A stretch of 64,000 nucleotides of DNA from Limimaricola sp. G21655-S1. Lineage in GTDB: Bacteria; Pseudomonadota; Alphaproteobacteria; Rhodobacterales; Rhodobacteraceae. Position 1 is the stretch's first letter. Every line of letters begins with the position of its first letter. Where the stretch lies: positions 62,001 through 126,000 of the forward strand of contig NZ_JAPWGO010000011.1 of NCBI RefSeq assembly GCF_027213785.1. The letters are read 5' to 3'. The notes under the pieces were generated by a model. That model made no database searches. It worked only from the letters and a program-made list of their open reading frames with translations, and was not told the origin of the DNA. Both the position numbers and the translations under genes were made by a program. This document shows positions 7,436 through 62,706 of the stretch, one piece after another.

Positions 7436-8449
7436 TCAGTCGCGCAGGCCGATCCGCTCGAGGAACTCGAGGTGGCTGTCGACGATGGCGCGGGCCTCCG
7501 GCGTCTTGGCGGCCCAGACCTCCCAGGTGTCGGTCGCGGCCTTGCGGAAGGTGGCGCGATCCTCGGCCGACCAGTCATGCAGCGTCACGCCCTTCTCGGG
7601 CAGCGCGTCGAGCGCCTCGCCATTGTCGACGATCACCTGCGTCATCAGCCCCAGCGCGAGGCTGTCCATCGAGACCTTGAGGATCTCGCGATGCGCCTCG
7701 GGCATCGCCTCCCATGTCGCGGTCGAGCAGGCGAGGTGGTCCGAGGACATCGAGTGGAAGCCCGGATAGGTGGTGTGGGTGGCGATGTCGTAGATGCCCA
7801 GCCCCACATTGTTGGCCAGCGTCGAGGCGTCGGCGCCGTCGATGATCCCGGTCTCCAGCGCCGTGAAGATCTCGGTGAAATCCATCACCACCGGCTTGGC
7901 GCCGAGCGCCGCGAAGATCTCCGACTCCATCCCCGGGGGCGAGCGGAACTTGAAGTTCTGCAGGTCCGAGATGCCGCTCAGCGGCTTGGTCGAGTTGAGC
8001 GATTCCTGCCCGCCGAGCCAGGCGCCGACGAACTCCATGCCGTTGGCGTTGTAGAGCTCGTTGATCTGCTCGCGACCGCCGCCATGCTGGATCCAGGCCA
8101 GGAACTGCAGCGGCGTGTCGTAGCCGCCCATCACGTCGGCCACGAACTGGAAGGCCGGGTTCTTGCCGGTCTGGTAGGAGCCGTTGGTCATGTCGCAGTC
8201 GAGGATGCCGTTGGCGGCGGCGTCGAAGGTCTCGGCGGATTTGACCACCGCCGAGGAGTAGAACATCTCGATCGAGATGTCCCCGCCGGACATCTTCTCG
8301 ACCTTCTCGACCCATTGCGCGGCCTGCTGGCCGGCGGGCGATTCAGGCGATTGCTGGGTCTGGACGCGCAGCGTTGTGGTCTGCGCGGCCGCGGTTCCCG
8401 CGAGCAGGGCCGCGGTGCCGATGGCGGCGAGCGACGAGACGATCTTCAT
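7436..8449 (-). CDS. TRAP transporter substrate-binding protein (DctP family), no adjacent permease
   Basis: Periplasmic solute receptor of 337 aa with a cleavable signal peptide (hydrophobic 6-20, cut near AAAQ). The conserved DctP arginine that grips the substrate carboxylate is in the segment FKFRSP. The ATG at 8447-8449 has GGGAGGG in front; a longer frame would put the signal peptide internally. The gene has no dctQM beside it on the same strand. The only local permeases are at 104-2502, which appear to have their own binding protein upstream. It may be an alternative receptor for those permeases or serve genes elsewhere. Confidence 0.88.
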   Translation of the reverse strand: MKIVSSLAAIGTAALLAGTAAAQTTTLRVQTQQSPESPAGQQAAQWVEKVEKMSGGDISIEMFYSSAVVKSAETFDAAANGILDCDMTNGSYQTGKNPAFQFVADVMGGYDTPLQFLAWIQHGGGREQINELYNANGMEFVGAWLGGQESLNSTKPLSGISDLQNFKFRSPPGMESEIFAALGAKPVVMDFTEIFTALETGIIDGADASTLANNVGLGIYDIATHTTYPGFHSMSSDHLACSTATWEAMPEAHREILKVSMDSLALGLMTQVIVDNGEALDALPEKGVTLHDWSAEDRATFRKAATDTWEVWAAKTPEARAIVDSHLEFLERIGLRD

Positions 8450-8501
8450 GGTTCCCTCCCTGTGAAATCCTCCACCGGGAGCCTGCCGCAGGGTCATCAA
8501 G

Positions 8502-8514
8502 ATTGCCAGACAAT
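8502..8514 (-). promoter_or_regulatory. Possible GntR-type operator upstream of the TRAP binding-protein gene
   Basis: ATTGCCAGACAAT is a 13-bp imperfect palindrome matching the form ATTGTC-N-GACAAT with one mismatch. It lies about 50 bases upstream of the start at 8449 and 25 bases past the preceding gene. Such spaced TTGTC/GACAA arms are common for FCD-type GntR proteins. A single short site with a mismatch is weak evidence. Confidence 0.3.
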
Positions 8515-8539
8515 TCGACAATCGGGCATGAGAAAATCG

Positions 8540-9676
8540 TCAGAGCAACCCGCGTCCGGCGAGGTTGCGCATCAGAGCGCCGGTGCCGAAGCACCATTCC
8601 GGGCATTCGGTCGAGAGCCGCACCGTGTTGCGCAGCGCGCCGAGGCGGTCCTCCTCGATCACCACCACGTCGCCGGTCTTGTGGGTAAATCCCTGTCCCG
8701 GCGCGTCGCGGTCCTGGATCGGCGCGAAGAGCGTGCCGAGGAACAGCAGGAAGCCGTCGGGATACTGGTGATGGCGGCCGATGGTCTGGGCGACGAGGCT
8801 TTCGGGGTCGCGGCTGATCTTCGACATCGAGGAACGGCCCTCCAGCCTGAAGCCATCCTCGCCCGTGACGTCGAGCCGCAGCTCGGCGGCGCGCATGTCG
8901 TCCATGGTGTAGTGTTCGTCGAAGACCCGGATGAAGGGGCCGATGGCGCAAGAGGCGTTGTTGTCCTTGGCCTTGCCCAGAAGCAGCGCCGAGCGGCCCT
9001 CGACGTCGCGCAGGTTCACGTCGTTGCCCAGGCTCGCGCCGCGAATCCGGCCTCGGCTGTCGACGGCGAGCACGATTTCGGGCTCGGGGTTGTTCCAGTT
9101 CGAGATCGGGTGCAGACCGACGCTCGCGCCCCAGCCGACGGCGGCCATCGGCTGGCACTTGGTGAAAACCTCCGCATCCGGGCCGATGCCGACCTCGAGA
9201 TATTGCGACCAGAGCCCCTCGGCCTGCAGCACCGCCTTGACCTGCTCGGCCTTGTCGGAGCCGGGGACGATGCCCGACAGGCTGTCGCCGATCACGCCCT
9301 GCACCCGGGCGCGGATCGCCTGCGCGCGGTCGGCGTCGCCCGCCGCCTGCTCCTCGATCACCCGCTCGACCATGCTCTCGGCGAAGGTGACGCCCGAGGC
9401 CTTGATCGCCTGCAGGTCGGCCGGGGCGAGGAGATGCGGCGTGCCGGGGGTTTCGGTCGAGGCGGCGAAGATCTCCTCGACGGGGCCGATGTCCTCGCCC
9501 GGCGCGCCGCGCAGGTAAGCGGCGAGGTCGTCGCGCTCCATCAGGTCGCGCATCGTCGGGGCCTCGCGCGAGGTGATGTCGATCACCCGGCCCTCGCGCA
9601 AGGTGACGAGGGCGGGGCCCTGGTCGCGCTGGACACGACCGGCGAGCAGGGCGCGGGAATGGTCTTGGGGAAGCAT
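8540..9676 (-). CDS. Fumarylacetoacetate hydrolase-family dehydratase, 2-keto-3-deoxy-pentonate type
   Basis: FAH-fold enzyme of 378 aa. The C-terminal metal-binding domain contains NNPEPEIVLAV, GNDVNLRD and CAIGPFIRVFD. Length and motifs fit the long FAH proteins such as Caulobacter XylX, which dehydrates 2-keto-3-deoxyxylonate to alpha-ketoglutarate semialdehyde. With the xylonate-dehydratase-like enzyme at 13264 it would supply two consecutive steps of a Weimberg-type pathway. Only 4 bases separate it from the upstream oxidase gene. The last enzyme, semialdehyde dehydrogenase, is not in the window. Substrate specificity is inferred. Confidence 0.8.
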   Translation of the reverse strand: MLPQDHSRALLAGRVQRDQGPALVTLREGRVIDITSREAPTMRDLMERDDLAAYLRGAPGEDIGPVEEIFAASTETPGTPHLLAPADLQAIKASGVTFAESMVERVIEEQAAGDADRAQAIRARVQGVIGDSLSGIVPGSDKAEQVKAVLQAEGLWSQYLEVGIGPDAEVFTKCQPMAAVGWGASVGLHPISNWNNPEPEIVLAVDSRGRIRGASLGNDVNLRDVEGRSALLLGKAKDNNASCAIGPFIRVFDEHYTMDDMRAAELRLDVTGEDGFRLEGRSSMSKISRDPESLVAQTIGRHHQYPDGFLLFLGTLFAPIQDRDAPGQGFTHKTGDVVVIEEDRLGALRNTVRLSTECPEWCFGTGALMRNLAGRGLL

Positions 9677-9680
9677 CGGT

Positions 9681-11078
9681 TCAGCCTTCGTCGTCGGCGG
9701 GCAGCATCTTGCCCGGGTTGAGGATGCCCTTGGGATCGAGGGCGGTTTTCAGCGACCGCATCACCGCGACGGCATCGCCGTGCTCCTCGGCCATGTGGGC
9801 GATCTTGCCCAGGCCCACGCCATGCTCGCCGGTGACGGTGCCGCCGAGCCGCAGCGCGGTTTCGGCCAGCGCGGCGGTGAAGCGGTGGACGCGGGCGACC
9901 TCGTCGGCATCGGCGGGATCGACCCGCAGCCCGCAATGGAAATTGCCGTCGCCGACATGGCCGACGATGGTCGAGGTGAGGCGCAGTTCGCGGGCGAGAC
10001 CCTGGGCATGGGTCACCGCCTCGGCCAGCCGCGAGATCGGCACGCAGACATCGGTGGCCAGCGTCCGCTTGCCGGGATCGAGCGCGCCGGTGGCGTAATG
10101 CGCCTGATGCCGCATGCGCCACAGCTCGCGGCATTCCTCGGCCCGGTCGGTCCAGCGGATCGCCGAGGCGCCGTATTCGCCGGCAAGCTCGCCGAAGGCC
10201 TGCGCCTGTTCGCCGACGCCGGTGGGGGTGCCGTGGAACTCGACGAAGAGATGCGGCGCCTCGGGCAGGTCGCTGCCCTGATAGGCGTTGAAGCCGCGCA
10301 CCATCATCTCGTCGAGAAGCTCGATCCGCGCCACGGCGAGGCCGGACTGGATCGTGGCGATGACGCAGTCGACCGCGTCGGCGACGCCGCCAAAGCGACA
10401 GGTCGCGGCCGAGACCGCCTCGGGCTGGCCATGCAGCCGAAGCGTCAACTCGGTGATGATGCCGAGCGTGCCCTCCGAGCCGATCATCAGACGGGTCAGG
10501 TCGTAGCCCGCGCTCGACTTGCGGGCGCGGCTGCCGGTGCGGATGATCCGCCCATCGGCCAGCACCACCTCGAGCGCCAGCACGTTGTCGCGCATCGTGC
10601 CGTAGCGCACCGCCGTGGTGCCCGAGGCCCGCGTCGCGGCCATGCCGCCAAGCGAGGCGTCGGCGCCCGGATCGACCGGGAACATCAGCCCGGTGGCGCG
10701 CAGCTCCTCGTTCAGGCGCGAGCGGGTGACGCCGGGCTGCACCACCGCGTCCATGTCCTCGGGGTGTACGGCGAGGATGCGGTCCATGCGCGAAAGGCTT
10801 AGCGCGATGCCGCCCCGTATGGCGAGATGATGCCCTTCGAGCGCGCTGCCCGCGCCCTGCGCCGTGACCGGGCAGCCATGGGCATGGCATTCGCGCAGGA
10901 TCGCCGCGACCTCCTCGGTGGTTTTGGGAAACACCACCGCGTCGGGCGGCGCGGGCGGGTAATGCGCCTCGTTCGCGCCGTGCTGGTCGCGCAGCGCCTC
11001 CGAGGTGGAGAGCCGGTCGCCCAAGAGCGGCGCGAGCGCGGCGATGGCCGCCGGGGCGGCGGGGTGAATGGTCTGCAT
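9681..11078 (-). CDS. FAD-binding oxidase, D-lactate dehydrogenase/GlcD type
   Basis: Flavoprotein of 465 aa: PCMH-type FAD-binding domain (about 35-215, with AQGAGSALEGH and VDPGADASLGGMAATRASG), then the FAD-oxidase C-terminal domain ending VTGEHGVGLGK...LDPKGILNPGKML. The motif GHVGDGNFH holds the metal/substrate-binding histidines of this family. It oxidises a 2-hydroxy acid (D-lactate, glycolate or a larger hydroxy acid). I start it at the ATG 11076-11078 because GGGAGGAC lies 7 bases ahead; an upstream reading would begin inside the operator at 11131. It appears to be first gene of the minus-strand operon. Confidence 0.87.
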   Translation of the reverse strand: MQTIHPAAPAAIAALAPLLGDRLSTSEALRDQHGANEAHYPPAPPDAVVFPKTTEEVAAILRECHAHGCPVTAQGAGSALEGHHLAIRGGIALSLSRMDRILAVHPEDMDAVVQPGVTRSRLNEELRATGLMFPVDPGADASLGGMAATRASGTTAVRYGTMRDNVLALEVVLADGRIIRTGSRARKSSAGYDLTRLMIGSEGTLGIITELTLRLHGQPEAVSAATCRFGGVADAVDCVIATIQSGLAVARIELLDEMMVRGFNAYQGSDLPEAPHLFVEFHGTPTGVGEQAQAFGELAGEYGASAIRWTDRAEECRELWRMRHQAHYATGALDPGKRTLATDVCVPISRLAEAVTHAQGLARELRLTSTIVGHVGDGNFHCGLRVDPADADEVARVHRFTAALAETALRLGGTVTGEHGVGLGKIAHMAEEHGDAVAVMRSLKTALDPKGILNPGKMLPADDEG

Positions 11079-11130
11079 CTGTCCTCCCAGCGCGGGGCTC
11101 GCGAGCCCCGCGCTTGTCCTCCACCCCGAT

Positions 11131-11140
11131 TGGTATACCA
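11131..11140. promoter_or_regulatory. TGGTATACCA operator, copy 1
   Basis: Perfect 10-bp palindrome between the divergent oxidase (start 11078) and beta-hydroxyacid dehydrogenase (start 11185) genes, in the context ATTGGTATACCATTTT. An identical decamer lies at 13183. The TGGT-N2-ACCA form matches operators known for FadR-subfamily GntR proteins (UxuR/ExuR use a TTGGTATACCAA core). Likely bound by the GntR protein at 5648-6403. Confidence 0.65.
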
Positions 11141-11184
11141 TTTTCGCGAGGCATCAAGCCGCAGGTGGCGGCGAGGGAGGAACA

Positions 11185-12108
11185 ATGACGGACAAGTCGA
11201 AGATCGGCTTCATCGGGCTGGGCTACATGGGGCGCGGCATGGCCGCGAACCTGCTGCGGGCCGGGCATCCGATGATGGTCAAGGGCAACCGCGACCGCGC
11301 GCCGGTCGAGGCGCTGGTGGCCCAAGGCGCGGTCGAGGCGGCGAGCCCGCGCGAGATGGCCGAAAGCTGCGACATCATCCATCTGTGCCTGTCGAACTCA
11401 AAACAGGTCGAGGCGGTGATCCGTGGCGAGGACGGGATCTTGGCGGGCGCGCGCGAGGGGTTGATCGTGATCGACACCACCACCGCCGATCCGGTCTCGA
11501 CCGCTTCGCTGGCCGGGGAGATGGCGGCGGCGGGGGTCACGCTGGTCGACGCGCCGCTCGGCCGCACGCCCAAGGAGGCCGAGGCGGGTACGCTCGACGC
11601 GATGGTCGGCTGCGACGCCGAGACCTTTGCCAAGGTGCGACCGGTGATCGAGGTCTGGGCCGGCAATATCAACCATGTCGGGGAAACGGGCGCCGGGCAC
11701 CGGATGAAGCTGGTGATGAACTTCATCTCCATGGGCTATGCCGCGCTTTATGCCGAGGCGCTGGTCATGGGGGTGAAGTCGGGGTTGAGCCCGCAGGCGA
11801 TCCAATCGGTGATCGGCGGCTCGCGGCTGTCGAACGGCTTCTTCGAGACCTTCATGCGGGCGGCGGTGGAGCGCGAGCGCGACGTGCACCAATTCTCGAT
11901 CACCAATGCCGCCAAGGACACGCGCTATGCCGCCTCGATGGCGATGGCGGCGGGGATGGCCAATCCGATGGGCTCGGCGATCCGCGATGCCTTCGCGCAG
12001 ATGGAGGCGGCGGGGAAGGGCGGCGACTACGTGCCGTGGCTGGCCGATCACGTGGCCGCGCTGAACGGGCTCGACCTCGAAGGCGCGGTGGCTCAGAGCA
12101 AGGCCTGA
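11185..12108 (+). CDS. Beta-hydroxyacid dehydrogenase (HIBADH/tartronate semialdehyde reductase family)
   Basis: NAD(P)-dependent dehydrogenase of 307 aa. The N-terminal Rossmann motif is GFIGLGYMGRGMA (about 8-20), the substrate signature DAPLGRTPKEAEAGTL follows near 115-135, and the catalytic lysine is in GAGHRMKLVMNF. The family reduces or oxidises beta-hydroxyacids such as tartronate semialdehyde, 3-hydroxyisobutyrate or sugar-acid breakdown products. The ATG at 11185 has GGGAGG 8 bases upstream. The gene starts 45 bases from the TGGTATACCA site and ends overlapping the convergent azlD-like gene by 16 bases. Confidence 0.87.
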   Translation: MTDKSKIGFIGLGYMGRGMAANLLRAGHPMMVKGNRDRAPVEALVAQGAVEAASPREMAESCDIIHLCLSNSKQVEAVIRGEDGILAGAREGLIVIDTTTADPVSTASLAGEMAAAGVTLVDAPLGRTPKEAEAGTLDAMVGCDAETFAKVRPVIEVWAGNINHVGETGAGHRMKLVMNFISMGYAALYAEALVMGVKSGLSPQAIQSVIGGSRLSNGFFETFMRAAVERERDVHQFSITNAAKDTRYAASMAMAAGMANPMGSAIRDAFAQMEAAGKGGDYVPWLADHVAALNGLDLEGAVAQSKA

Positions 12109-12413
12109 GCCGCGTAGAGCGTGGCGAGCCCGGCGGTGATCGCGCCGACCGGGCCGAAGCGCAGGCCCACGGCGACGGCCAGAAGCGCCGCGATGACCCG
12201 GGGGGCTTCGGTTTCGCCGCCGGTGGCGGCGGGCCAGAGCACGGCGGGCACGATCAGCGCCGGGAACACCGCGACGCCCACATATTTGAGGTGCAAGAGC
12301 AGCCAGTCGGGCAGCTGGCGTCCGCCCAGAAGGCCGAGAAAGGAAAACCGGATCAGGAAGGTGCCGAGGCCGAGCGCCAGCGTCAGACTCCAGAACTCGC
12401 CCGCGCCGATCAT
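12093..12413 (-). CDS. azlD: AzlD-family branched-chain amino acid exporter, small subunit
   Basis: Membrane protein of 106 aa with about four hydrophobic helices and the AzlD-typical pattern TFLIRFSFLGLLG and LKYVGVAVFPALIVPAVLWP. It works with AzlC to export branched-chain or related amino acids. Its ATG overlaps the azlC stop (ATGA, 12410-12413), so the pair is translationally coupled. The last 16 bases overlap the 3' end of the convergent dehydrogenase gene. Confidence 0.85.
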   Translation of the reverse strand: MIGAGEFWSLTLALGLGTFLIRFSFLGLLGGRQLPDWLLLHLKYVGVAVFPALIVPAVLWPAATGGETEAPRVIAALLAVAVGLRFGPVGAITAGLATLYAAQALL

Positions 12414-13135
12414 GCCGGGCACTCCGAACGCCGCGCCGCCCGGCGGCGCAGGAACAGCTCCGCCTGCGCGCCCGCGATCATCGCGGCGATGGCGGCGATC
12501 GGCAGGCCGAGATTCCACGGCAGCCAGGCAAAGCCGATGGTGACGATGGACGAGACCAGCGCCGCGAGCAGGTGCGGCAGGCTGCGCAGCAGGGGCGCGA
12601 GCAGCGCGATGAAGCAGACCGGCACCGCGAAATCGAGCGACAGCGAGGCCGGGATCGCCTGTCCCATCAGCGCGCCCGCCAGCGTGCAGCCGTACCAGAT
12701 CGGGCAGACCACGGCCATGCAGCCGAAATAGTAGCGCAGCTTCTGCGACAGCGTCATGCCGGGGCTGTCCTCGTAGCGGCGCACCGCCACGGCGAAGCTC
12801 TGATCCACCATGAGATAGGCCGCGAGTGCCCGTGCGCCCAAGGGAGCCGCGCCCAGATGCGGCACCAAGGCGGCGGAATACATCGCCATGCGCAGGTTCA
12901 CCGCCAGCGCCGCCAGAAGCGCCACGAAGACCGGCGCGCCGTCCTGCAACAGCGCCAGCGCCGTGAACTGCGAGGCCCCGGCGATGACGATCACCGACAT
13001 CGACATCACCTGCAGGAGGTCGAGACCCGCATCGCGGGCGACGACACCGAACAGGGTTGAGAACGGGATCACGATCAACACGAAGGGCAGGCAGTCGCGA
13101 AATCCCGCGCGGAAGGGATGGCGAGGCGGCGGCAT
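12410..13135 (-). CDS. azlC: AzlC-family branched-chain amino acid exporter, large subunit
   Basis: Integral membrane protein of 241 aa. The N-terminal region RAGFRDCLPFVLIVIPFSTLFG and the motif GASQFTALALL are diagnostic of AzlC, and NLRMAMYSAALVPHL is the conserved loop. It forms the permease with AzlD. An amino-acid exporter is unexpected in a sugar-acid locus; because it diverges from the dehydratase gene across the TGGTATACCA site at 13183, it may be co-regulated and export a side product. Confidence 0.9.
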   Translation of the reverse strand: MPPPRHPFRAGFRDCLPFVLIVIPFSTLFGVVARDAGLDLLQVMSMSVIVIAGASQFTALALLQDGAPVFVALLAALAVNLRMAMYSAALVPHLGAAPLGARALAAYLMVDQSFAVAVRRYEDSPGMTLSQKLRYYFGCMAVVCPIWYGCTLAGALMGQAIPASLSLDFAVPVCFIALLAPLLRSLPHLLAALVSSIVTIGFAWLPWNLGLPIAAIAAMIAGAQAELFLRRRAARRSECPA

Positions 13136-13182
13136 GGGTGGCTCCGGTAATGAGGCGACAGGGCCGGATTGGCTCTTGCATC

Positions 13183-13192
13183 TGGTATACCA
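13183..13192. promoter_or_regulatory. TGGTATACCA operator, copy 2
   Basis: Second perfect copy of the decamer found at 11131, here in the 128-bp region between azlC (start 13135) and the xylonate-dehydratase-like gene (start 13264). Identical sequence in both divergent promoter regions of the block argues for a shared regulator acting on at least four transcription units. Confidence 0.65.
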
Positions 13193-13263
13193 TCTAGCGA
13201 TCCTGCCACAAGCAGACAGGCGATCCGCGATGTCGGGACGCCGCCGAGAGGGAGGAGAGGGCC

Positions 13264-15042
13264 ATGGACACCCGCGCGAAGCGCAAGTTCCGCAGCCAGG
13301 AATGGTTCGACAACCCCAACAATCCGGGGATGACCGCGCTTTATATCGAGCGCTACCAGAACCAGGGCTACACGCAGGGCGAGCTGCAGGGCGAACGCCC
13401 GGTGATCGGCATCGCCCAGACCGGCAGCGACATCGCGCCCTGCAACAAGATCCACGTCTTTCTCATGGACCGGATCAAGGCGGGCATCCGCGACGCCGGC
13501 GGCATCCCGATGGAATTCCCGGTGCATCCGATCCAGGAGACCGGCAAGCGGCCCACCGCCGCGCTCGATCGCAACCTGAGCTATCTCGGCCTCGTCGAGG
13601 TGCTGCATGGCTACCCGATCGACGGCGTGGTGCTGACGACGGGCTGCGACAAGACCACGCCCGCCATGTTGATGGGCGCGGCCACGGTCGACATCCCCGC
13701 CATCGCGCTCAATGGCGGGCCGATGCTCGATGGCTGGTGGAAGGGCGAGCGCGCGGGCTCGGGCACGATCATCTGGGAAAGCCGCCGCCTGCTGGCCGAG
13801 GGCAAGATCGATTATGACGAGTTCATGGGCCGGGTCTGCGCCTCGGCCCCGTCGCTCGGGCATTGCAACACCATGGGCACGGCCAGCACGATGAACGCGA
13901 TGGCCGAGGCCTTGGGCATGACGCTGCCCGGCAATTCGGCGATCCCGGCGCCGTTCCGCGAGCGCATGGCGATGGCCTACGAGACCGGGCGGCGCATCGT
14001 CGCCATGGTGCACGAGGATCTGAAGCCCTCGGACATCCTGACCCGCGAGGCCTTCGAGAACGCCATCGTCACCAACTCCGCGATCGGCGGCTCGACCAAC
14101 GCGCCGCCGCATCTTCAGGCGATCGCGCGGCATGCGGGCGTCGAGCTGGACGTGACCGACTGGCAGAAGATCGGCTTCGACGTGCCCTTGCTGGTCAACA
14201 TGCAGCCGGCGGGCAAGTATCTGGGCGAGAGCTTCTTCCGCGCGGGCGGCGTGCCCGCCGTGATGGGTGAGCTGCGCAAGGCGGGCCGCCTGCATGAAGG
14301 CGCGATGACCGCCTCGGGCAAGAGCATGGGCGAGAACCTCGAAGGCTGGGAGAGCCGGGACACCGACGTGATCCTGCCCTATGACGCGCCGCTGCGGATC
14401 AATGCGGGCTTTCTGGTGCTCTCGGGCAACCTGTTCGACAGCGCGCTGATGAAGACCTCCGTGATCTCCGAGGGTTTCCGCGAGCGTTACCTGTCCCGAC
14501 CGGGCCATGAAGGCATCTTCGAGGCCCGCGCCGTGGTGTTCGAGGGGCCCGAGGATTACCACGAGCGGATCAACGACCCGTCCTTGGAGATCGACGCCGA
14601 GACGATCCTGTTCATCCGCGGCGTCGGCTGCGTCGGCTATCCCGGCTCGGCCGAGGTGGTGAACATGCAGCCGCCCGACGCGGTGCTGAAGGCCGGGATC
14701 AACCACTTGCCGACGGTGGGCGACGGGCGGCAATCGGGCACTTCCGAGAGCCCCTCGATCCTCAACGCCTCGCCCGAGGCGGTGGTGGGCGGCGGGTTGG
14801 CCCTGCTCGAGACCGGCGACCGGGTGCGGCTCGATCTCGGGGCCTGCCGCCTCGACGCGCTGGTGCCGGACGAGGAATGGGCCGCGCGCCGCGCCGCGTG
14901 GTCGCCGCCCGAGCTGCGAAACCAGACGCCGTGGCAGGAGATCTACCGCAAGAACGTGGGCCAGCTCGCCGATGGCGGCTGCCTCGAACTGGCCACGGCC
15001 TATCACAAGGTCGGCCGCGACCTGCCGCGCGACAACCATTGA
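13264..15042 (+). CDS. IlvD/Edd-family dehydratase, xylonate dehydratase-like
   Basis: Iron-sulfur dehydratase of 592 aa, the length of Caulobacter XylD (D-xylonate dehydratase). The presumed cluster ligands are Cys60 ([11 protein letters not shown]), Cys128 ([12 protein letters not shown]) and Cys201 ([11 protein letters not shown]), all intact. It converts a pentonate such as xylonate or arabinonate to a 2-keto-3-deoxypentonate, which the FAH-family enzyme at 8540 could dehydrate further. GGGAGGAGAGG lies before the ATG. Sequence separates it from biosynthetic IlvD by the long N-terminus ([21 protein letters not shown]), typical of sugar-acid dehydratases. Confidence 0.9.
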
Positions 15043-52307: not shown

Positions 52308-52835
52308 CTACCCGGTCCGTTCGGTCATGACGACCGCCATGTCGCGGATCCGGGCGCTGGCCTCGGTGCCAAGCGTCACGCGCTTGTCGGTGACGTCGTG
52401 CAGGGTCTGGATCAGCTCTCCGACCTCCTCGATCTCGGCGGCCGTGAAATCACGATCGCTGCGCGCGAGACCGCCGAAGCTGATGTCGTCGCCCTCGTGG
52501 ATCGAGCGGGTGTGGCCGTGGACGATGCCGTATTCGCGGGCGCGGGCCAGGACCCCGGCGCCATCCTGCTCCTCGAGTTCCGCCCACCGCTTCGCGCCAT
52601 GATGATGCATCGCCCAGCGAACCGTGGGATCGCGCATCAACAGCCCGTCCCGCGCATAGAGGTCGAGCCATTCGGCCGGGTAGCTCTCGAACATGTAGGC
52701 TGGCGTCATGTAGCGGATATGCAGACCGATCGCGAACCCCGCCGGCGCGATTTCGATCAGGCGACCCAACGTCGCAATCACGACCGCGCCGGGATCATCT
52801 ACTGTCCCACGGGGATCATGGGCGGAATTGAACAT
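52308..52835 (-). CDS. LuxR-type autoinducer-binding domain protein lacking a DNA-binding domain
   Basis: 175-aa protein consisting of an autoinducer-binding domain only. The ligand-pocket pattern is kept: YPAEWLDLYARDGLLMRDPTVRW holds the conserved Trp, Tyr and Asp-Pro, and a later KRWAEL supplies a Trp. It ends at MTERTG where a LuxR protein would continue into the GerE helix-turn-helix. It may sequester a signal or pair with the full LuxR-like protein encoded divergently at 52934. No frameshifted HTH was found downstream. Confidence 0.78.
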   Translation of the reverse strand: MFNSAHDPRGTVDDPGAVVIATLGRLIEIAPAGFAIGLHIRYMTPAYMFESYPAEWLDLYARDGLLMRDPTVRWAMHHHGAKRWAELEEQDGAGVLARAREYGIVHGHTRSIHEGDDISFGGLARSDRDFTAAEIEEVGELIQTLHDVTDKRVTLGTEASARIRDMAVVMTERTG

Positions 52836-52933: not shown

Positions 52934-53536
52934 ATGACAGAGCATTTGTCCTACGAGGTCGCACAGCGTTTGGGGCCGTCCGGGTTCTACCTCGGGCTGC
53001 GGATCCGCTTTGCCTTTCCCGCCCGAGAGGCCAACCACCTGCCACGCTCCTGGGTCGAACTCTACTCCCGCGAGAAGTTCTTCTTCGCGGACCCCTCCCT
53101 GAAGTGGTCTTATGAACACACAGGCGCGATCCGCCTGCAGGAGCTGAGCGAGGACGACCCGTTGGGGATCATCCCGCAGGCGCGGGAGCAGGGGCTGCGC
53201 CACGGCGCCGTCGCCTCCTACAACGAGGATGGCGGGCTGCGCAGCTACGGGCTGTTCTACCGCGATGACCGTGAATACGACGATGCCGAGCTCGCGCTTC
53301 TCGCGGATTACGTCATGGAACTGCACCGAAAGCTGGCGCCACCGCAGACGCTGACGCGGGCCGAACTCGACGTGCTCCGGCGGATCAAGGATGGCGGCAA
53401 GCTCAAGCAGATCGCCTCGGAGTTCGGCGTGTCGGAAGGCGCGATCAAGCAGCGGCTGAAGAATGCCCGCCTCAAGCTCAATGCGAGCAACGGCACGCAG
53501 GCGGCCTCGCTCGCCGCCACCTTCGGCCTGATCTGA
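52934..53536 (+). CDS. LuxR-family transcriptional regulator (autoinducer-binding plus HTH)
   Basis: 200-aa regulator. The N-terminal autoinducer-binding domain (about 5-130) keeps LPRSWVELYSREKFFFADPSLKW (Trp, Tyr, Asp-Pro), but the later pocket Trp is replaced (GAIRLQEL), so ligand choice may differ. A GerE-type HTH follows (about 138-185, LTRAELDVLRRIKDGGKLKQIASEFGVSEGAIKQRLKNARLKL). It is shorter than most LuxR proteins (about 240 aa). No luxI synthase lies in the window, making it a solo, divergent from an HTH-less relative. Confidence 0.85.
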   Translation: MTEHLSYEVAQRLGPSGFYLGLRIRFAFPAREANHLPRSWVELYSREKFFFADPSLKWSYEHTGAIRLQELSEDDPLGIIPQAREQGLRHGAVASYNEDGGLRSYGLFYRDDREYDDAELALLADYVMELHRKLAPPQTLTRAELDVLRRIKDGGKLKQIASEFGVSEGAIKQRLKNARLKLNASNGTQAASLAATFGLI

Positions 53537-55536: not shown

Positions 55537-55752
55537 CGCCGCCGGGAACAGGGCGACGCGACCCGTTGGCCGTATCCTCGACGTGGTGAACTTGCAGGGC
55601 ACCGCCTCGCCGTCCACGCGCATGCGCGGCGTCGGATCAGGTACGACATGCAGTCCGGCCCGTCCATGATCCCGACCCGCCGATCCACATAGCCGTTCGC
55701 AGCGACATCTGCCCGGCTCGCACCCGAATACGCCCGATCTGCAATCTTGCGC

Positions 55753-55770
55753 TATACGATATATCGTATA
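55753..55770. promoter_or_regulatory. 18-bp palindrome, candidate operator of the GntR-Ldh2 fusion gene
   Basis: TATACGATATATCGTATA is a perfect 18-bp palindrome 26 bases upstream of the ATG at 55797. It is the only strongly AT-rich symmetric element near this operon. Its form (ATAC-GATATATC-GTAT) is typical of FCD-type GntR operators, and it overlaps the expected promoter, as for an autorepressor. Confidence 0.7.
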
Positions 55771-55796
55771 CCATTTTGAGTCGGGGAGGGCGCTGG

Positions 55797-57563
55797 ATGT
55801 CGGAGAGCATTGCGGCGACTGCGCGGCTGGACCGCCAGAAACTGTCGGAGCAGGCGCGCGAGGCGATCCGCGACCGGATCGTGCAAGGCGCGTTTCCGCT
55901 GGGCCGCAAGCTGCCCGAAGCGGAGCTGGTCGAGCTGCTGAGCATGAGCAAGAGCCCGATCCGCGAGGCGCTGCTGCAGCTCGAGCGCGAGGGGCTGATC
56001 GAGATGGCGGCGGGCCGAAGCGCGCGGGTCTTCTCGATGGGCGCGGCCGAGATCGCGGAGCTGGGCGAGCTGCGGCAGATGCTGGAGTTGCAGGCGATGC
56101 GGATGGCGCTCGAACGCAATCCCGGCCCGCTTCGGGCGGCGCTCGACGGTATCGCGGCGCGGATGGAGGAGGCGCTGTCGCGCGGTGACACCGGGGCCTA
56201 CAAGCTGCTCGACCACGACTTCCACGACGCGATCTTCGACAGTTGCGGCAACAGCTTCGTGCGCGACAACTTCCGGCGGCTGTCGTTCCGGGTGCAGGCG
56301 CTGCGCAACCGCCTGTCGCTCGACGACACGCTGAACCAGAAATCTCTCGGCGAGCATATCGCCATCGCCGAGGCCGTCACGGCCGGGCGCGGCGAAGCGG
56401 CGGTCGCGCTCCTGTCCACGCATATCGGCGACACGATCGAAGCCTATCTTGCGCGGCTCGCGGCGGAGGCGGAGCCGGCGTCGGAGGCGCTGACCCCGGT
56501 CCGGGTCGCGCTGGAGGAGATGGAGCGTTTCTCGCGCGCGGCGCTGGCGGCGGTGGGGGCCGATGATCCGACGATCAAAGCGGTGACGAAGGCGCTGCTG
56601 CATGCCTCGGCCCTCGGGGTGGACACGCATGGGTTCCGGCTTTTGCCGCATTACCTGCAAGGGCTTTCCGAAGGGCGGCTGAACCGGGCACCGAAGCTCG
56701 AGATCGTGCAGGAGACCGGCGGCGCCTGCGTTCTCGAGGCCGATGACGCGCATGGCGCGCGGGCCGGTTACGCGGCGGTGGAGCGGGCGCTGGAACTGGC
56801 GCGGACGCATGGTCTCGCGGCGGTGGCGATCCGCGGCTCGTCGCATTTCGGAGCCGCCGGGGCCTATGCGCTGGAGATCGCGCGCCACGGCATGATGGGC
56901 CTCGCCTTTTGCAATTCCGACAGTTTCGTGCGGCTGCATGGCGGCGCGGTGCGGTTCCACGGCACCAACCCCATCGCCGCCGCCGCGCCGGCCGGAGAGG
57001 GGGAGCCTTGGCTGCTCGACATGGCGACGAGCGCCATTCCCTTCAACCGCGTGCAGCTCAACCGCAGCCTCGGCGCGGCGCTGCCCGAGGACGTGGCCTC
57101 GGACGCGCGGGGCGTCAACGTCACCGATCCGGCGATCGTCGAGATGCTGGCCCCGCTGGGCGGCGCGCTTTTCGGCTACAAGGGAGCGGGCCTCGCGGGG
57201 CTGGCCGAGATCTTCTCGACCGCCTTTTCCGACGCGCCGCTGAGCTTCGAGCTGCCGCCGATGATCAGCGACGACATGGCGACGCCGCGCAGGCTCGGCG
57301 CCTTCGTCATGGCGCTGGACCCCGAGGCCTTCGGCGGTCGCGCCGTCTTCGAGGCCGTCATTCGCCGCTACCTCGCCGCCATCACCGCGTCGCCGGCCGC
57401 GCCGGGCGAAACCGTCATGGCGCCGGGCGCGCGCGAATGGGCCGAGGCCGAGCGGCGGCGCGTGCAGGGGATGAAGCTCGACCGCGGCTCGGTCGAGGCG
57501 CTGAAGCGCTTTGCCGAGACGCATGGGATCGAGCCGCTCCGCTACCGTTCGGGAGGGCGGTGA
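55797..57563 (+). CDS. Fusion protein: GntR/FCD regulator joined to an Ldh2-family (malate/L-lactate/ureidoglycolate-type) dehydrogenase
   Basis: One uninterrupted 588-codon frame encodes a whole transcription factor and a whole enzyme. Residues ~15-80: GntR winged HTH (LSMSKSPIREALLQLEREGLIEM). Residues ~88-222: FCD domain with the probable metal ligands Asp139, His143, His187 and His209. Residues ~233-588: Ldh2-family NAD(P)-dependent 2-hydroxyacid dehydrogenase with GVDTHGFR (His278), GSSHFGAAG (His350), HGTNPIAAAAP, LLDMATSA and GYKGAGLAGLAE. GGGGAGGG lies before the ATG. dctPQM follow after 37 bases. An in-frame ATG (residue 242, after GGAGGAG) might allow separate enzyme synthesis. Confidence 0.88.
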   Translation: MSESIAATARLDRQKLSEQAREAIRDRIVQGAFPLGRKLPEAELVELLSMSKSPIREALLQLEREGLIEMAAGRSARVFSMGAAEIAELGELRQMLELQAMRMALERNPGPLRAALDGIAARMEEALSRGDTGAYKLLDHDFHDAIFDSCGNSFVRDNFRRLSFRVQALRNRLSLDDTLNQKSLGEHIAIAEAVTAGRGEAAVALLSTHIGDTIEAYLARLAAEAEPASEALTPVRVALEEMERFSRAALAAVGADDPTIKAVTKALLHASALGVDTHGFRLLPHYLQGLSEGRLNRAPKLEIVQETGGACVLEADDAHGARAGYAAVERALELARTHGLAAVAIRGSSHFGAAGAYALEIARHGMMGLAFCNSDSFVRLHGGAVRFHGTNPIAAAAPAGEGEPWLLDMATSAIPFNRVQLNRSLGAALPEDVASDARGVNVTDPAIVEMLAPLGGALFGYKGAGLAGLAEIFSTAFSDAPLSFELPPMISDDMATPRRLGAFVMALDPEAFGGRAVFEAVIRRYLAAITASPAAPGETVMAPGAREWAEAERRRVQGMKLDRGSVEALKRFAETHGIEPLRYRSGGR

Positions 57564-57600
57564 CGGGATCACGTCAGACATCAACCAGGGAGGAAGACCG

Positions 57601-58602
57601 ATGACACCGAAGCTGACCCAGACCGTCGCGCTGGCCACCACCGCGGTGGCCGCGCTCACCGCCGCCGCGCCGGTCGCGGCGCAGGACGCCGAGCGCATGT
57701 TGAAATGGGCCCATGTCTACGAGGTAAGCGAGGCCTACCACACCTGCGCCGTCGCGGCGCATGACGAGCTGGTCGCCTCGACCGATGGCCGCTACGGCAT
57801 CGAGGTCTTCCCGGCCTCGTCGCTCGGCAAGGAGGTCGATATCAACGAAGGCCTCAGCCTCGGCACCGTCGACATCATCTATACCGGCCAGCTCTTTGCC
57901 GGCCGCGCCTATGGCCCGGTCGCCATCGGCGGCGCGCCCTACATGTTCCGCGACTACGCGCATTGGGATGCCTTCCGCAATTCTGACCTGTTCGAGGAGC
58001 TGAGCCAGGGCTACGCCGACGCGACCGGCAACCAGATCGAGGCGCTGACCTATTACGGCAACCGCCACGTGACCTCGAACAAGCCGATCACCACGCCCGA
58101 GGACATGGACGGGCTGAAGATCCGCGTGCCGAACGCGCCTCTTTACATGATGTTCCCCGAGGCCGTCGGCGCCAACCCGACGCCGATCGCCTTCGCCGAG
58201 GTGTATCTGGCGCTTCAGCAGGGGACCGTCGACGCGCAGGAGAACCCGCTGCCGACGATCCAGGCCAAGAAGTTCTACGAGGTGCAGTCGGACATCAACC
58301 TGACCGGCCATATCACCGACGCGCTGCTGACCATCGTCGGCGGCCCGGCCTGGAGCAGCATGGACGAGGCCGACCAGCAGGCGCTCTCGGCGGCCATCGA
58401 CAACGCCGCCGCCTGCGCCACCGAGGCGATCCGAGACCAGGAGGCCGAGCTGGTCGAATGGTTCAAGGAACAGGGCGTCAACGTCAACGAGGTCGACCGG
58501 GAGCCGTTCATCGAGGCGGTGAAGGCCATGCATATGGGCGATATGGCGAGCTGGGATCAGGAGACCTACGACCGGCTCCAGGCCATCGGCCAGGAGTCCT
58601 GA
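57601..58602 (+). CDS. dctP: TRAP transporter substrate-binding protein (DctP family)
   Basis: Periplasmic receptor of 333 aa with a signal peptide (about 1-26, cut after APVAAQ). The carboxylate-binding arginine lies in the family segment MDGLKIRVPNAPLY, and QQGTVDAQENPLPTI is the conserved helix/loop. AGGGAGGAAG precedes the ATG. It is preceded by the GntR-Ldh2 fusion gene, so the ligand is probably the hydroxy acid that enzyme oxidises or a precursor. A strong hairpin separates it from dctQ. Confidence 0.93.
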   Translation: MTPKLTQTVALATTAVAALTAAAPVAAQDAERMLKWAHVYEVSEAYHTCAVAAHDELVASTDGRYGIEVFPASSLGKEVDINEGLSLGTVDIIYTGQLFAGRAYGPVAIGGAPYMFRDYAHWDAFRNSDLFEELSQGYADATGNQIEALTYYGNRHVTSNKPITTPEDMDGLKIRVPNAPLYMMFPEAVGANPTPIAFAEVYLALQQGTVDAQENPLPTIQAKKFYEVQSDINLTGHITDALLTIVGGPAWSSMDEADQQALSAAIDNAAACATEAIRDQEAELVEWFKEQGVNVNEVDREPFIEAVKAMHMGDMASWDQETYDRLQAIGQES

Positions 58603-58640
58603 CCCGCGCGCGCGTGTCCCCGCGTCGCATACCGTGACCA

Positions 58641-58666
58641 ACCGGCCCCCGGGAATGGGGGCCGGT
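58641..58666 (+). terminator. GC hairpin between dctP and dctQ
   Basis: Perfect 10-bp stem ACCGGCCCCC (58641-58650) with GGGGGCCGGT (58657-58666) and a 6-base loop, 39 bases after the dctP stop. Probably a differential-expression element. Confidence 0.65.
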
Positions 58667-58693
58667 CCGCATGCCCCATAGGGACGAGTGACC

Positions 58694-59272
58694 ATGAAAT
58701 CAGGACCCCGGACTTCCCAAGCGCCGCAAGAGACGACGCCGGCGCTGCATCTTGAGGAGGAGGAGATCGACCTGTCGGACCTGCGATGGGACGATGCGCT
58801 GGTCATGGTGATCTTCTGGGTGCTCGCCTTCGTGGTGTTTCTCCAGTTCTTCACCCGCTACGTGCTCAACGACTCGCTTGGCTGGACCGAGGAGATCGCG
58901 CGGTTCCTGTTGATCGCGGTCACCTTCACAGGCTCGGTCATGGCGGTGCGCAAGAATGCCCATATCGCGGTCGAGTTCCTGTATCGCTGGGTGCCGCGGC
59001 CGCTGCGCCGGGTCGCGCAGACGCTGATCGACCTCGTCTCGATCGCCTTCTACTCCGGGCTTGCCTACCTGTCGGGCCAGCTCGCGGGCCGGACCCGGCA
59101 GATGATGGTCTCGATCGACGTGCCGAAATCCCTGGTCTACTGGTTCGTCGCCGCCTGTTTCGCCGCGATGGCCGCCTATGCCCTCCGCAACGCCTGGCTG
59201 CACCTGCGCAGCGGCACCAGCAAACTCATCGACCCCGAGCAGCACGCGGACTCCGTGCGCGCGATGGACTAG
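58694..59272 (+). CDS. dctQ: TRAP transporter small permease (DctQ family)
   Basis: Small membrane subunit of 192 aa with four helices (about 40-60, 75-93, 118-138, 152-172) and the DctQ pattern FFTRYVLNDSLGWTEEIARFLLI. The N-terminal ~30 residues are acidic and cytoplasmic. An in-frame GTG 6 bases upstream (58688) is an alternative start, but the ATG is better spaced from AGGGA. Eleven bases separate its stop from dctM. Confidence 0.9.
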   Translation: MKSGPRTSQAPQETTPALHLEEEEIDLSDLRWDDALVMVIFWVLAFVVFLQFFTRYVLNDSLGWTEEIARFLLIAVTFTGSVMAVRKNAHIAVEFLYRWVPRPLRRVAQTLIDLVSIAFYSGLAYLSGQLAGRTRQMMVSIDVPKSLVYWFVAACFAAMAAYALRNAWLHLRSGTSKLIDPEQHADSVRAMD

Positions 59273-59283
59273 GAGCGCCCGCC

Positions 59284-60564
59284 GTGGAAATCGCCTTTCT
59301 CTTCATCATCCTGTTCTCGCTGCTGCTCTTCGGGGTGCCCGTGGCCATCGCCCTCGCCGGGTCCTCGGCGGTGTTCATCCTGGCCAACGGGATGCCGCCG
59401 CCGATGGTGGTGGCGCATCGGATGATCAACGGCGTCGACAGCTTCCCGCTGCTCGCGGTGCCGTTCTTCATCCTCGCGGGAAACCTGATGAACACCGCCG
59501 GGATCACGGAGCGCATCTTCAACTTCGCCCTGGCGCTGGTGGGCTGGATGCGCGGCGGGCTGGGCCATGTGAATGTCGGCGCCTCGGTGATCTTCGCGGG
59601 GATGTCGGGCGCGGCGGTGGCCGATGCGGGCGGTCTCGGCGCGATCGAGATCAAGGCGATGCGCGACGCCAAATACGATGCCGGCTTCGCCGTGGGGGTG
59701 ACGGCCGCCTCATCGACCATCGGTCCGATCATCCCGCCATCGCTGCCGATGGTGATCTACGGCGTGGTCGCCGGCACCTCGATCGGCCAGCTCTTCGCCG
59801 CGGGCTTCGTGCCCGGCATCGTGATGGCGGTGTCGCTGATGCTGATGGTCGCCTTCTTCGCGCGGCGCCGGGGCTTTCCGCGCGACCAGCCGTTCGAGAT
59901 GTCGCTGCTGGTCAGCTCGTTCGGGCGCGCCTTCCTGTCGCTGCTGACGCCGGTGATCATCGTCGGCGGCATCCTGTCAGGGGCCTTCACCCCGACCGAA
60001 GCCGCCGTCGCCGCCTGCGCCTGGGCGATGTTCCTCGGGCTCGTGATCTACCGCACGCTCACCCTGCGGCGGTTCCTGCGGGTGACCTTCGACACGATCG
60101 AGACCACGGCGGTGGTGCTGTTCGTGGTCGCCGCGGCGGCGATCTTCGCCTGGATCCTGACCTCGAACCGGGTGCCCGAGGCGGTGGCGGGCATGCTGCT
60201 CTCGGCCTCGGACCGGCCCTGGGTCATCCTGCTGCTGATCAACCTGATCCTGCTGATCGTCGGCTGCTTCATGGAGACCGTCGCGGCGATCACGATCCTC
60301 GTGCCGGTGCTGTTGCCGGTGGCGATGGAGCTCGGCATCGACCCGGTGCATTTCGGCGTCATCATGGTGCTGAACCTGATGCTGGGCCTGCTCACCCCGC
60401 CGGTCGGCATGGTGCTTTACGTGCTCGCGCGCGTGGCCAGGATCCCGTTCGAGCGCTGCGTCGTCTCCACCGCGCCGTTCCTGATCCCGCTGGTGCTGGT
60501 GCTGGTGCTGATCACCTTCGTGCCGGCGGTCACCATGTGGCTGCCGACGCTGATCTATCGCTAG
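59284..60564 (+). CDS. dctM: TRAP transporter large permease (DctM family)
   Basis: Large permease of 426 aa, the standard family length, with about 12 membrane segments. Typical motifs are GMSGAAVADAGGLGAIEIKAMRDA, STIGPIIPPSLPMVIYG and NLMLGLLTPPVGMVLYV. It starts with GTG at 59284. Last gene of the GntR/Ldh2-dctPQM operon; the oligopeptidase gene converges from the right 30 bases away. Confidence 0.95.
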   Translation: MEIAFLFIILFSLLLFGVPVAIALAGSSAVFILANGMPPPMVVAHRMINGVDSFPLLAVPFFILAGNLMNTAGITERIFNFALALVGWMRGGLGHVNVGASVIFAGMSGAAVADAGGLGAIEIKAMRDAKYDAGFAVGVTAASSTIGPIIPPSLPMVIYGVVAGTSIGQLFAAGFVPGIVMAVSLMLMVAFFARRRGFPRDQPFEMSLLVSSFGRAFLSLLTPVIIVGGILSGAFTPTEAAVAACAWAMFLGLVIYRTLTLRRFLRVTFDTIETTAVVLFVVAAAAIFAWILTSNRVPEAVAGMLLSASDRPWVILLLINLILLIVGCFMETVAAITILVPVLLPVAMELGIDPVHFGVIMVLNLMLGLLTPPVGMVLYVLARVARIPFERCVVSTAPFLIPLVLVLVLITFVPAVTMWLPTLIYR

Positions 60565-60594
60565 GGCCGGTCGGGCACGGGGCGCCGGGGCGCG

Positions 60595-62706
60595 CTAGCT
60601 CCGCGCCCCGTCCTCCGTCCCGGTGACCTTAATCGCGAAGGCATAGGAGCGCGCCGCATCCTCGAGCGCGGCAAAGCGTCCCGACTTGCCGAAATGGCCC
60701 GAGCTCATGTTGGTCCGCAGCATCAGGATGTTGTCGTCGGTCTTGGTGGCGCGGAGCCGCGCGACCCATTTGGCCGGCTCCCAGTAGGTGACGCGCGGAT
60801 CCGAGACGCCGGCGGTCACGAGCATCGGCGGATAGTCCTGCGCGGTGACGTTGTCATAGGGCGAATAGCGTCGGATGTCGTCGAATGCCTCACGGCTCTC
60901 GATCGGGTTGCCCCATTGCGACCACTCTCCCGGGGTCAGCGGCAGCGTGTCGTCGAGGATCGTCGCGAGCACGTCGACGAAGGGCACGTCGGCGATGGCC
61001 CCGGCCCAGAGATCGGGACGCATGTTCAGAACCGCGCCCACCAGCAGCCCCCCGGCGGAGCCACCCTGGATGATGATCCGACGGCGGGCGGCATAGCGGC
61101 CATCGACCAGCGCCTCGGCCACGGCGATGAAGTCGTGGAACGTGTTGGGCTTGCCCCCGAATTTCGCCGCCTCGTACCAGTTGCGCCCCAGCTCCTCGCC
61201 GCCGCGCACATGGGCGATGGCATGGACGAAGCCGCGATCCACCAGGCTCAGCCGGTTGGCGGAGAAGGCGGCGGGCATGCTCGCGCCGTAGGAGCCATAG
61301 CCATAGAGCAGGCAGGGCGCCGTGCCATCGAGCGGCGTGTCCTTGTGGTGCAGGATCGTCACCGGCACCTGCGCGCCATCATGCGATGTGGCCGCCATCC
61401 GGATCGTCACGTAGTCCGCGGGGTCGTGGCCCGAGGGGATCTCGGTGGTCTTGCGCAGCACCCGCTCGCCGCTCGTCAGGTCGTAGTCGAAGACCTGCGG
61501 CGGCGTGGTGGGGGAGGAATAGGTGAAGCGGAAGCTGTCGGTGTCGTATTCCGGGCTGGGATCGCTTCCCAGCGAATAGGCCTGTTCCTCGAACGCGATG
61601 GGCCGCGCCTCCGAGATCGGCCGCCCCTGCGCGACATAGCAGATGCGGGGCAGGGCGTTGCGCCGTTCCATCCAGATCGTCCAGCCCCGATAGGCGGCGA
61701 GGCTCACGATCATCCGACCGGGCTCGTGCGGGATCAGGTCGACCCAGTTGGCGCGGGAGGGGGCCGAGACCGGCGCGCGCACCACCTTGAAGTCGAAGGC
61801 CTCGTCGGCATTGGTCAGGATCAGGAAGCTGTCGCCCTGCTGCTCGACCTCGTATTCGAGACCCCGGGTCCGGGGCTCGATCACCCGCGGCGCGGCCTGC
61901 GGATCGCCGGTGGGGATCACGTGGATCTCGTTCTCGTCGTTCATGCCGGTGGACAGCGCGACGAACTCACCCGACCGCAGCCGGTGGACGGCGACGCCGT
62001 AGCGGGTGTCCGCCTCGGTGAAGACAAGGACATCCTCGGCCGGATCGCTGCCGAGCACGTGGCGGAACACCTTGTTCGGGTGATGCCGCGCATCGACGCG
62101 CACGTAGAACAGCGTCCGCGCATCGGCCCATGCGAGCGACGCGACATCCTCGATGTGATAGTCGAGATCGGTGCCGGCATCGATGTCGCGGAACGACAGG
62201 CGGTAGAACTCGGAGCCGTTGACGTCGGCGGTCCAGGCCAGGACCTTGTGGTCGGGCGAGACCTGCCTGCGACCCAGTTGGAAATACGCCTGCGCCGCGG
62301 CCTCGGCATTCACGTCCAGCACGACCTGTTCCGCGCCGCCGTCGCGCGGCGTGCGGGTGAAGAGCGGATACTCCGCCCCTTCCACGAAGCGCATCGCGTA
62401 GGCGAAGGGGCCGTGATCGCGCGGAACGCTGCTGTCATCCTCCTTGATGCGGCCGCGCATCTCCTCGACCAATCGCGCCTGCAGATCGACCGTGTCGGCC
62501 ATCGCCGCCTCGTAATAGGCATTCTCGGCCTCCAGGTAGCCGGCGATGTCGGCGGGCAGCTTTTGCGGCTCCCGCATCGCCTCCTGCCAGTTCGCCGCGC
62601 GCAACCAGGCATAGTCGTCATGCAGATCGACACCGTGGACATGGGCGATCGAGGGGCGGCGCTCCGCGACGGGCGCGCCGGGCAAGGCTTTGAACGAACG
62701 GGGCAT
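60595..62706 (-). CDS. S9-family prolyl oligopeptidase (oligopeptidase B-like)
   Basis: Cytoplasmic serine peptidase of 703 aa. The N-terminal seven-bladed propeller (about 70-420) gates a C-terminal alpha/beta-hydrolase domain. The catalytic triad is Ser550 (GGSAGG), Asp636 (SDPR) and His671 (SSGHFG). YGYGSYGASMPAAFSANRLSLVDRGF and the RGGEELGRNWYEAAK segment match oligopeptidase B, which cuts after basic residues in short peptides. The ATG at 62704-62706 has AAAGGACC ahead; no signal peptide. Confidence 0.93.
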   Translation of the reverse strand: MPRSFKALPGAPVAERRPSIAHVHGVDLHDDYAWLRAANWQEAMREPQKLPADIAGYLEAENAYYEAAMADTVDLQARLVEEMRGRIKEDDSSVPRDHGPFAYAMRFVEGAEYPLFTRTPRDGGAEQVVLDVNAEAAAQAYFQLGRRQVSPDHKVLAWTADVNGSEFYRLSFRDIDAGTDLDYHIEDVASLAWADARTLFYVRVDARHHPNKVFRHVLGSDPAEDVLVFTEADTRYGVAVHRLRSGEFVALSTGMNDENEIHVIPTGDPQAAPRVIEPRTRGLEYEVEQQGDSFLILTNADEAFDFKVVRAPVSAPSRANWVDLIPHEPGRMIVSLAAYRGWTIWMERRNALPRICYVAQGRPISEARPIAFEEQAYSLGSDPSPEYDTDSFRFTYSSPTTPPQVFDYDLTSGERVLRKTTEIPSGHDPADYVTIRMAATSHDGAQVPVTILHHKDTPLDGTAPCLLYGYGSYGASMPAAFSANRLSLVDRGFVHAIAHVRGGEELGRNWYEAAKFGGKPNTFHDFIAVAEALVDGRYAARRRIIIQGGSAGGLLVGAVLNMRPDLWAGAIADVPFVDVLATILDDTLPLTPGEWSQWGNPIESREAFDDIRRYSPYDNVTAQDYPPMLVTAGVSDPRVTYWEPAKWVARLRATKTDDNILMLRTNMSSGHFGKSGRFAALEDAARSYAFAIKVTGTEDGARS

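Follow-up and report, generated by a model that had tools for sequence, protein, structure and literature searches.

A single gene in the window—the whole 64,000-nucleotide stretch of Limimaricola DNA analyzed here—encodes a GntR-FCD repressor joined to a full Ldh_2 dehydrogenase, and this fusion is real and widely kept among relatives. We propose, at a probability of roughly two in three, that its product is one bifunctional protein, with an FCD/GntR half that would repress its own gene and the TRAP importer encoded downstream, and an active Ldh_2 half that would clear the signal of the pathway. The proposal starts from features read in the sequence—the fusion, its apparent single origin, selection on both halves, a conserved palindrome, linkage to TRAP genes and a link to sugar-acid genes—and extends by inference to binding of DNA and repression, to the make-up of the operon, to the ligand and the reaction, and to any coupling of the two halves. 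Few enzymes carry a repressor of their own, and in this fusion it is the FCD branch of GntR regulators that has been joined to one; the enzyme half offers a direct clue to the ligand of the regulator.

A repressor and a dehydrogenase in one open reading frame

The fused gntR-FCD-ldh2 gene occupies 55797..57563 (+) and translates without a single internal stop into 588 aa, bearing out the initial annotation, which had described one uninterrupted frame. At its N-terminus, a GntR winged helix-turn-helix (residues 16-78, 55842..56030, +; Pfam PF00392, E 1.4e-14) is followed by an FCD metabolite-sensing domain (residues 88-211, 56058..56429, +; PF07729, E 9.3e-24), both above cut-off, placing this half in the FCD subfamily of the GntR superfamily. 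The C-terminal half is an Ldh_2 family NAD(P)-dependent 2-hydroxyacid dehydrogenase domain (residues 238-569, 56508..57503, +; PF02615, E 1.2e-88), whose match spans profile positions 2-332 of 333 and which, by this full-length match and its conserved motifs, belongs to the type 2 malate/L-lactate dehydrogenase family. Assignment to the AllD, YiaK or sulfolactate dehydrogenase sub-families was not obtained (best NCBIfam score 172.6 bits vs. a cut-off of 356), and among the matches listed none of 19 models reached its curated cut-off. With a predicted DNA-binding domain and an apparently intact catalytic domain on one polypeptide, the protein has the make-up of a trigger enzyme.

Both halves had also been described as full length with key residues kept, and this held when 31 fused proteins were aligned. 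Asp139, His143, His187 and His209, which we take from the FCD family to be metal ligands, are all present and invariant, and the Asp and His of the FCD Asp-x3-His motif align with those of PDB 3fms. In the enzyme half, H278, R281, H350, D375, D408-M-A-T-S412 and K462-G463 of the GYKG motif are likewise invariant, with G460 and Y461 of the same motif at least 90% conserved; these presumably include the catalytic histidine and the nucleotide and substrate motifs of the Ldh_2 family.

Between the halves lies a linker (residues 219-235, 56451..56501, +) that varies in both length and sequence, measuring 39-60 nt between our two custom domain profiles across 29 fused loci and 51 nt in the closest relative. 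A linker does join the halves as first described, but it is slightly longer than the approximately ten residues given at the time. An AlphaFold2 model built from a 31-row alignment reached a mean pLDDT of 76.3 and a pTM of 0.54, with a poor stretch at approximately residues 375-500 and low confidence at linker residues 226-232. Foldseek supported both folds (best 50 of 85 matches) and gave nothing firm on the relative placement of the halves, and no single chain in the PDB matched the two halves together at E<=0.001. In sequence and in fold (the latter among the best 50 of 85), the first 220 residues match VanR/Atu1419, PmiR and TM0439, stand-alone FCD/GntR repressors of known structure, although these are chains of 198-250 residues without an enzyme. 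The nearest solved stand-alone Ldh_2, Agrobacterium 1z2i, aligns with residues 235-583 and is 56% identical over the enzyme (again among the best 50 of 85 fold matches).

We also considered an internal restart at Met242 that would release a free enzyme and judged it unlikely, though a GGAG-like stretch precedes Met242 in the window: the likely starts of unfused enzymes (L006, L081) lie further upstream, and 1z2i carries Leu at this position.

Distribution, origin and selection of the fused gene

To survey relatives, named genomes were scanned with two peptide patterns of this enzyme clade, and all 80 loci kept of 357 confirmed were classified with custom regulator and enzyme profiles; because the scan was restricted to this clade, GntR fusions to other Ldh_2 clades may have been missed. 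This architecture search, which the initial annotation had suggested, revealed a single-ORF fusion of regulator and enzyme in 29 of the 80 loci, comprising 3 further records and 26 loci in 16 named genera (Limimaricola, Tranquillimonas, Oceanicola, Actibacterium, Maritimibacter, Jannaschia, Psychromarinibacter, Tropicimonas, Roseicyclus, Natronohydrobacter, Roseinatronobacter, Salipiger, Alloyangia, Pseudoponticoccus, Palleronia and Marivita). Across 101 related genomes, the full-length protein was present in the window's own genome, in three of seven congeners (87-95% identity) and in one other genus (G032). A family sample of 394 genomes, approximately one per genus, contained the enzyme clade at E<=1e-60 in 25, five of them fused by matched range, while a phylum-wide sample of 398 genomes yielded 12 matches at E<=1e-40, with the window's own as the sole fusion by matched range. 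Of 1859 matching plasmid records, two among the matches listed (the best 40) reach a query coverage of 80% or more, and in either case the annotation gives separate genes.

In other families regulator and enzyme genes do lie next to each other, which lends some plausibility to a sequencing or assembly artefact joining two neighbors, but this explanation is refuted by the same fusion recurring in 29 loci from separate genome records. Recurrence on this scale, and in congeners, means that chance and local sequencing error can both be discarded as sources of the fusion. Close relatives in which the two genes are always separate had been named as grounds for abandoning the fusion; the congeners and the 16 genera contradict this, and it is the more distant relatives that keep the genes apart.

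The remaining 51 loci, mostly from Rhizobiaceae and Paracoccus, encode the enzyme without a fused regulator. In 27 of them a stand-alone GntR gene and, after it, dctP lie behind the enzyme gene, an order that recalls the fused loci, although the genes are separate and the GntR protein is another one, of weak similarity (48-71 bits vs. 250-367 bits for fused regulators).

We then placed the enzyme domain in a tree of 67 rows, made up of 31 distinct fused sequences and 36 separate ones picked from 86 distinct. All 31 fused rows, together with the unfused enzyme of Palleronia aestuarii (L081), formed one clade with SH-aLRT 100 in a quick tree search, and the fused or unfused state changed 2 times on the tree vs. 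a mean of 22.4 with shuffled labels; long branches led to L177, L051 and L008. Within this clade, L081 is nested with a support of 91; immediately upstream of its enzyme gene lie an FAH gene and a stand-alone FCD/GntR gene. These patterns suggest that the fusion apparently arose once and that L081 probably split again from the fused state, and the unfused relatives and L081 offer natural controls. As for the origin of the regulator half, the nearest unfused regulators share 38-40% identity with it, no enzyme of this clade was found in the 9-14 kb around five of them, and no donor was found among these five neighborhoods. In a congener whose match runs past a stop (G002), the regulator is present, with no enzyme within the 4.4 kb covered.

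Purifying selection acts on both halves. In ten pairs analyzed by the NG86 method, dN/dS was 0.12-0.34 for the regulator half (0.02-0.27 for its helix-turn-helix), 0.06-0.21 for the enzyme half, which fell below the regulator half in nine of the ten, and 0.06-0.93 for the short linker. These values, together with a palindrome retained upstream of 27 of the 29 fused genes (described below), make it very improbable that the protein is simply an enzyme with an N-terminal extension, its regulator half being cargo in decay. The one locus that speaks for such decay is L033, with its diverged helix-turn-helix and no palindrome seen.

The locus itself (G234:C1:833004-834716) carries a fusion with no recognizable palindrome upstream, and its regulator half is perhaps changing target or losing function.

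Selection also bears on the dehydrogenase half, which could in principle be a catalytically dead ligand sensor as is generally so for the aminotransferase-like half of MocR regulators. In the latter the enzyme fold is that of a PLP aminotransferase used for sensing, and neither FCD nor Ldh_2 is known to be present. As a precedent, PMC5320631 describes a GntR-type helix-turn-helix joined to an enzyme fold in MocR, PdxR and GabR regulators, the same combination as in our fusion. We nonetheless regard a dead enzyme as improbable: His278, His350, Asp375, DMATS and K462-G463 are unchanged in all 31 fused proteins, the enzyme evolves under the tighter constraint just described, the protein already contains an FCD sensor, and its genome holds no second enzyme match at E<=1e-60 to replace the activity. 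Pfam found no aminotransferase domain in the fused protein, which sets it outside the MocR group.

A candidate operator, the TRAP importer and known parallels

An operator-like palindrome, TATACGATATATCGTATA, lies at 55753..55770, 26 nt before the start codon of the fused gene, with a 15-mer core, GATATATCGTATACC, at 55758-55772. Singled out in the initial annotation, it proved unique in the window when up to 3 mismatches were allowed, and 100 shuffles gave no match. The window's own genome contains one perfect 18-mer site, at this very position, and two 3-mismatch sites, and the core at up to 2 mismatches occurs in 7 places (two of which are the operator itself, overlapping) vs. 4 for a reversed control, so no regulon can be claimed beyond the protein's own operon.

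Among relatives, a palindrome scoring at least 13/18 was found upstream of those 27 fused genes, whereas it precedes dctP in 0 of the 29 fused loci and an unfused enzyme in 1 of 51. The score is not fully blind, since seven other upstreams had already been inspected when the pattern was derived from the site in the window. The two other fused loci scored just 11/18. In other genera, the usual form of the site before fused genes is G[AG]TATA-3-TATA[CT]C, with variants. A shuffle test gave p<=0.015 for 29 of 33 upstreams (a number that includes duplicates of the same genome), failing in L033, L065, L066 and L068, yet both L065 and L066 carry a good palindrome of this shape. A recurring palindrome before the fused gene is the pattern that autogenous control by the fused protein predicts, and the protein probably represses its own operon, TRAP importer included, via the candidate operator at 55753-55770. 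A simple scan of 55600-60700 found neither a sigma-70-like promoter nor a terminator.

The importer adjoins the fused gene as originally described, taking up the next three genes: the solute-binding protein DctP (57601..58602, +; PF03480), the small permease DctQ (58688..59272, +; PF04290) and the large permease DctM (59290..60564, start approximate, +; PF06808). Only 37 nt separate the fused gene from dctP, and dctP lies downstream on the same strand in all 29 fused loci, directly next in 28 of them (cut by the contig end in L058) and behind three catabolic genes in L071. The nearest solved relatives of DctP are PDB 4pc9 and 4pcd, which we take to have been solved with D-mannonate and L-galactonate. 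TRAP importers near sugar-acid genes of the kind discussed below have been assigned to L-fuconate and L-galactonate (PMC5507952).

The closest working parallel for such an arrangement is PutA, a repressor and dehydrogenase in one protein with its own gene and an importer as targets. PutA combines a ribbon-helix-helix domain with proline and P5C dehydrogenase domains. According to PMC8249747, the E. coli and Salmonella protein is both DNA-binding repressor and catabolic dehydrogenase, controls its own gene and the adjacent importer gene putP (see also PMC6978683 on PutA), and counts among five trigger enzymes of E. coli, alongside BirA, NadR, PepA and PyrH. The fusion differs in its GntR-FCD and Ldh_2 parts, in a TRAP importer that lies downstream in the same direction, and in having a separate sensor domain between its DNA-binding and catalytic parts; Pfam gives only GntR, FCD and Ldh_2 in the 588 residues, so it is not a PutA. 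The initial annotation had known of no described system like this one, which stands for the domain pair within the reach of our open-access searches aimed at it, as these gave no description of a GntR-FCD-Ldh_2 protein (subscription papers being mostly outside their scope). It does not extend to the principle of a DNA-binding enzyme repressing its own gene and importer, already known from PutA, nor to the joining of GntR to an enzyme fold, known from MocR; what is new, as far as these searches reach, is this pair of domains.

Sugar-acid genes and possible coupling of the halves

Several loci place sugar-acid genes beside the enzyme. In three fused loci (L065, L071 and L078), a galactarate/altronate-type dehydratase, an SDR and an FAH hydrolase stand beside the fusion, and in L071 all three are inserted between the fusion and dctPQM in the same direction. 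The dehydratase scores under the NCBIfam cut-off for galactarate dehydratase, and the closest model for the hydrolase of these three loci is 2,4-didehydro-3-deoxy-L-rhamnonate hydrolase at 416.7 bits, below its cut-off of 500. The fused loci L066 and L072 have the dehydratase and the hydrolase, respectively, and unfused L081 has both. Altogether, a dehydratase or FAH gene occurs in only 5 of 29 fused loci, with neither in the stretch covered for the other 24 (short in some). A locus from another class (G485/L189) groups an SDR, a hydrolase, a GntR gene, a separate enzyme and dctPQM, with a weaker dehydratase match of 220 bits.

Co-occurrence points the same way: the dehydratase is present in 24 of 25 family genomes with the enzyme clade vs. 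175 of 369 without it (Fisher p 8e-7, uncorrected for kinship), and, among 12 hand-picked genomes, in 7 of 8 fused genomes and 1 of 4 unfused congeners. Individual congeners depart from this, as the fused G006 has no dehydratase at E<=1e-100 and G002, lacking the fusion, has two. In the window's genome, a dehydratase (2556-4049) and an SDR (4060-4776) lie within the window and an FAH gene lies 1.9-2.7 kb beyond its left edge, all on the same contig as the fusion, some 51-58 kb away; this dehydratase may be of a different subgroup, being just 60% identical to that of L071 when others of 62-77% exist in the family. Neighbors and co-occurrence together suggest, as a statistical link, that the enzyme belongs to sugar-acid catabolism. 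A dehydratase, SDR and hydrolase route turns L-fuconate into pyruvate and L-lactate (PMC11199699), and an L-2-hydroxyacid dehydrogenase would be well suited to the step that uses L-lactate or L-glycerate.

Under our preferred reading, the fused gene would be the first of its own operon, and the protein would bind the palindrome just before its own start codon, repressing itself and the TRAP importer in a PutA-like, autogenous manner. A sugar-acid-derived acid imported by the TRAP system, or its product, would bind the FCD metal site and release the operator, while the dehydrogenase half would oxidize an L-2-hydroxy acid of the same pathway—our guess being L-lactate or L-glycerate from the dehydratase/SDR/FAH-hydrolase route, oxidized to pyruvate or hydroxypyruvate—and so remove or change the signal. 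Fusion would set repressor and enzyme at 1:1, and the switch would go off as the enzyme clears the metabolite.

How far the halves communicate is a separate matter. A stronger version, close to the coupling of transcription to catalytic state put forward in the initial annotation and in our view rather doubtful, is that the protein senses flux, with the occupancy or redox state of the dehydrogenase (NAD(P)H and keto acid vs. NAD(P)+ and hydroxy acid) relayed via the FCD domain to the DNA-binding half. If true, importer transcription would track catalysis itself, beyond metabolite level, and this would be a GntR/FCD-based trigger enzyme maintained since one fusion event. The variable linker argues slightly against such tight coupling, whereas the fact that the fusion has been kept for so long argues slightly in its favor. 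The halves could instead work independently, like the separate GntR and Ldh2 proteins of other alphaproteobacteria, with fusion only fixing their ratio, which is our main explanation minus the feedback through the enzyme and to which we give somewhat less than even odds. The 27 unfused loci with a separate GntR gene and dctP behind the enzyme indicate that the parts can work apart, L081 has apparently split again, and a linker that varies in length and sequence, modeled at low confidence, is what a plain tether predicts; against this, one fusion event with 31 distinct members and at most one loss on the tree suggests an advantage of joining. The autorepressor with an enzyme that clears its signal is the reading we retain, and the system is testable in environmental marine bacteria.

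The sugar-acid genes at the left of the window form a second cluster, spanning 104-15042 plus approximately 3 kb further left (C22:59316-62000) and including TRAP genes. In addition to the dehydratase and SDR, it contains an FCD/GntR gene (5648-6403, -), an FAH-fold protein (8540-9676, -), an FAD-linked oxidase (9681-11141, -), a 6PGDH-like protein (11182-12105) and an IlvD/Edd dehydratase (13264-15042), with another FCD/GntR gene next to the FAH gene just left of the window. In and near this cluster we observed five occurrences of GGTATACC in 76 kb vs. 0.63 expected from base composition, all five reading TGGTATACCA, at C22:54755, 60880, 60938, 73132 and 75184 (the last two being window positions 11132 and 13184). 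These may be binding sites for a stand-alone FCD/GntR regulator of the conventional type; their half-sites resemble those of the fusion's candidate operator, and the spacing differs. GGTATACC is also found shortly before the enzyme start in L081. Finally, the window contains two divergent LuxR-type genes, one at 52308-52835 (-), in which an autoinducer-binding domain was found and a helix-turn-helix was not, and one at 52934-53536 (+) with both an autoinducer-binding domain and a helix-turn-helix.
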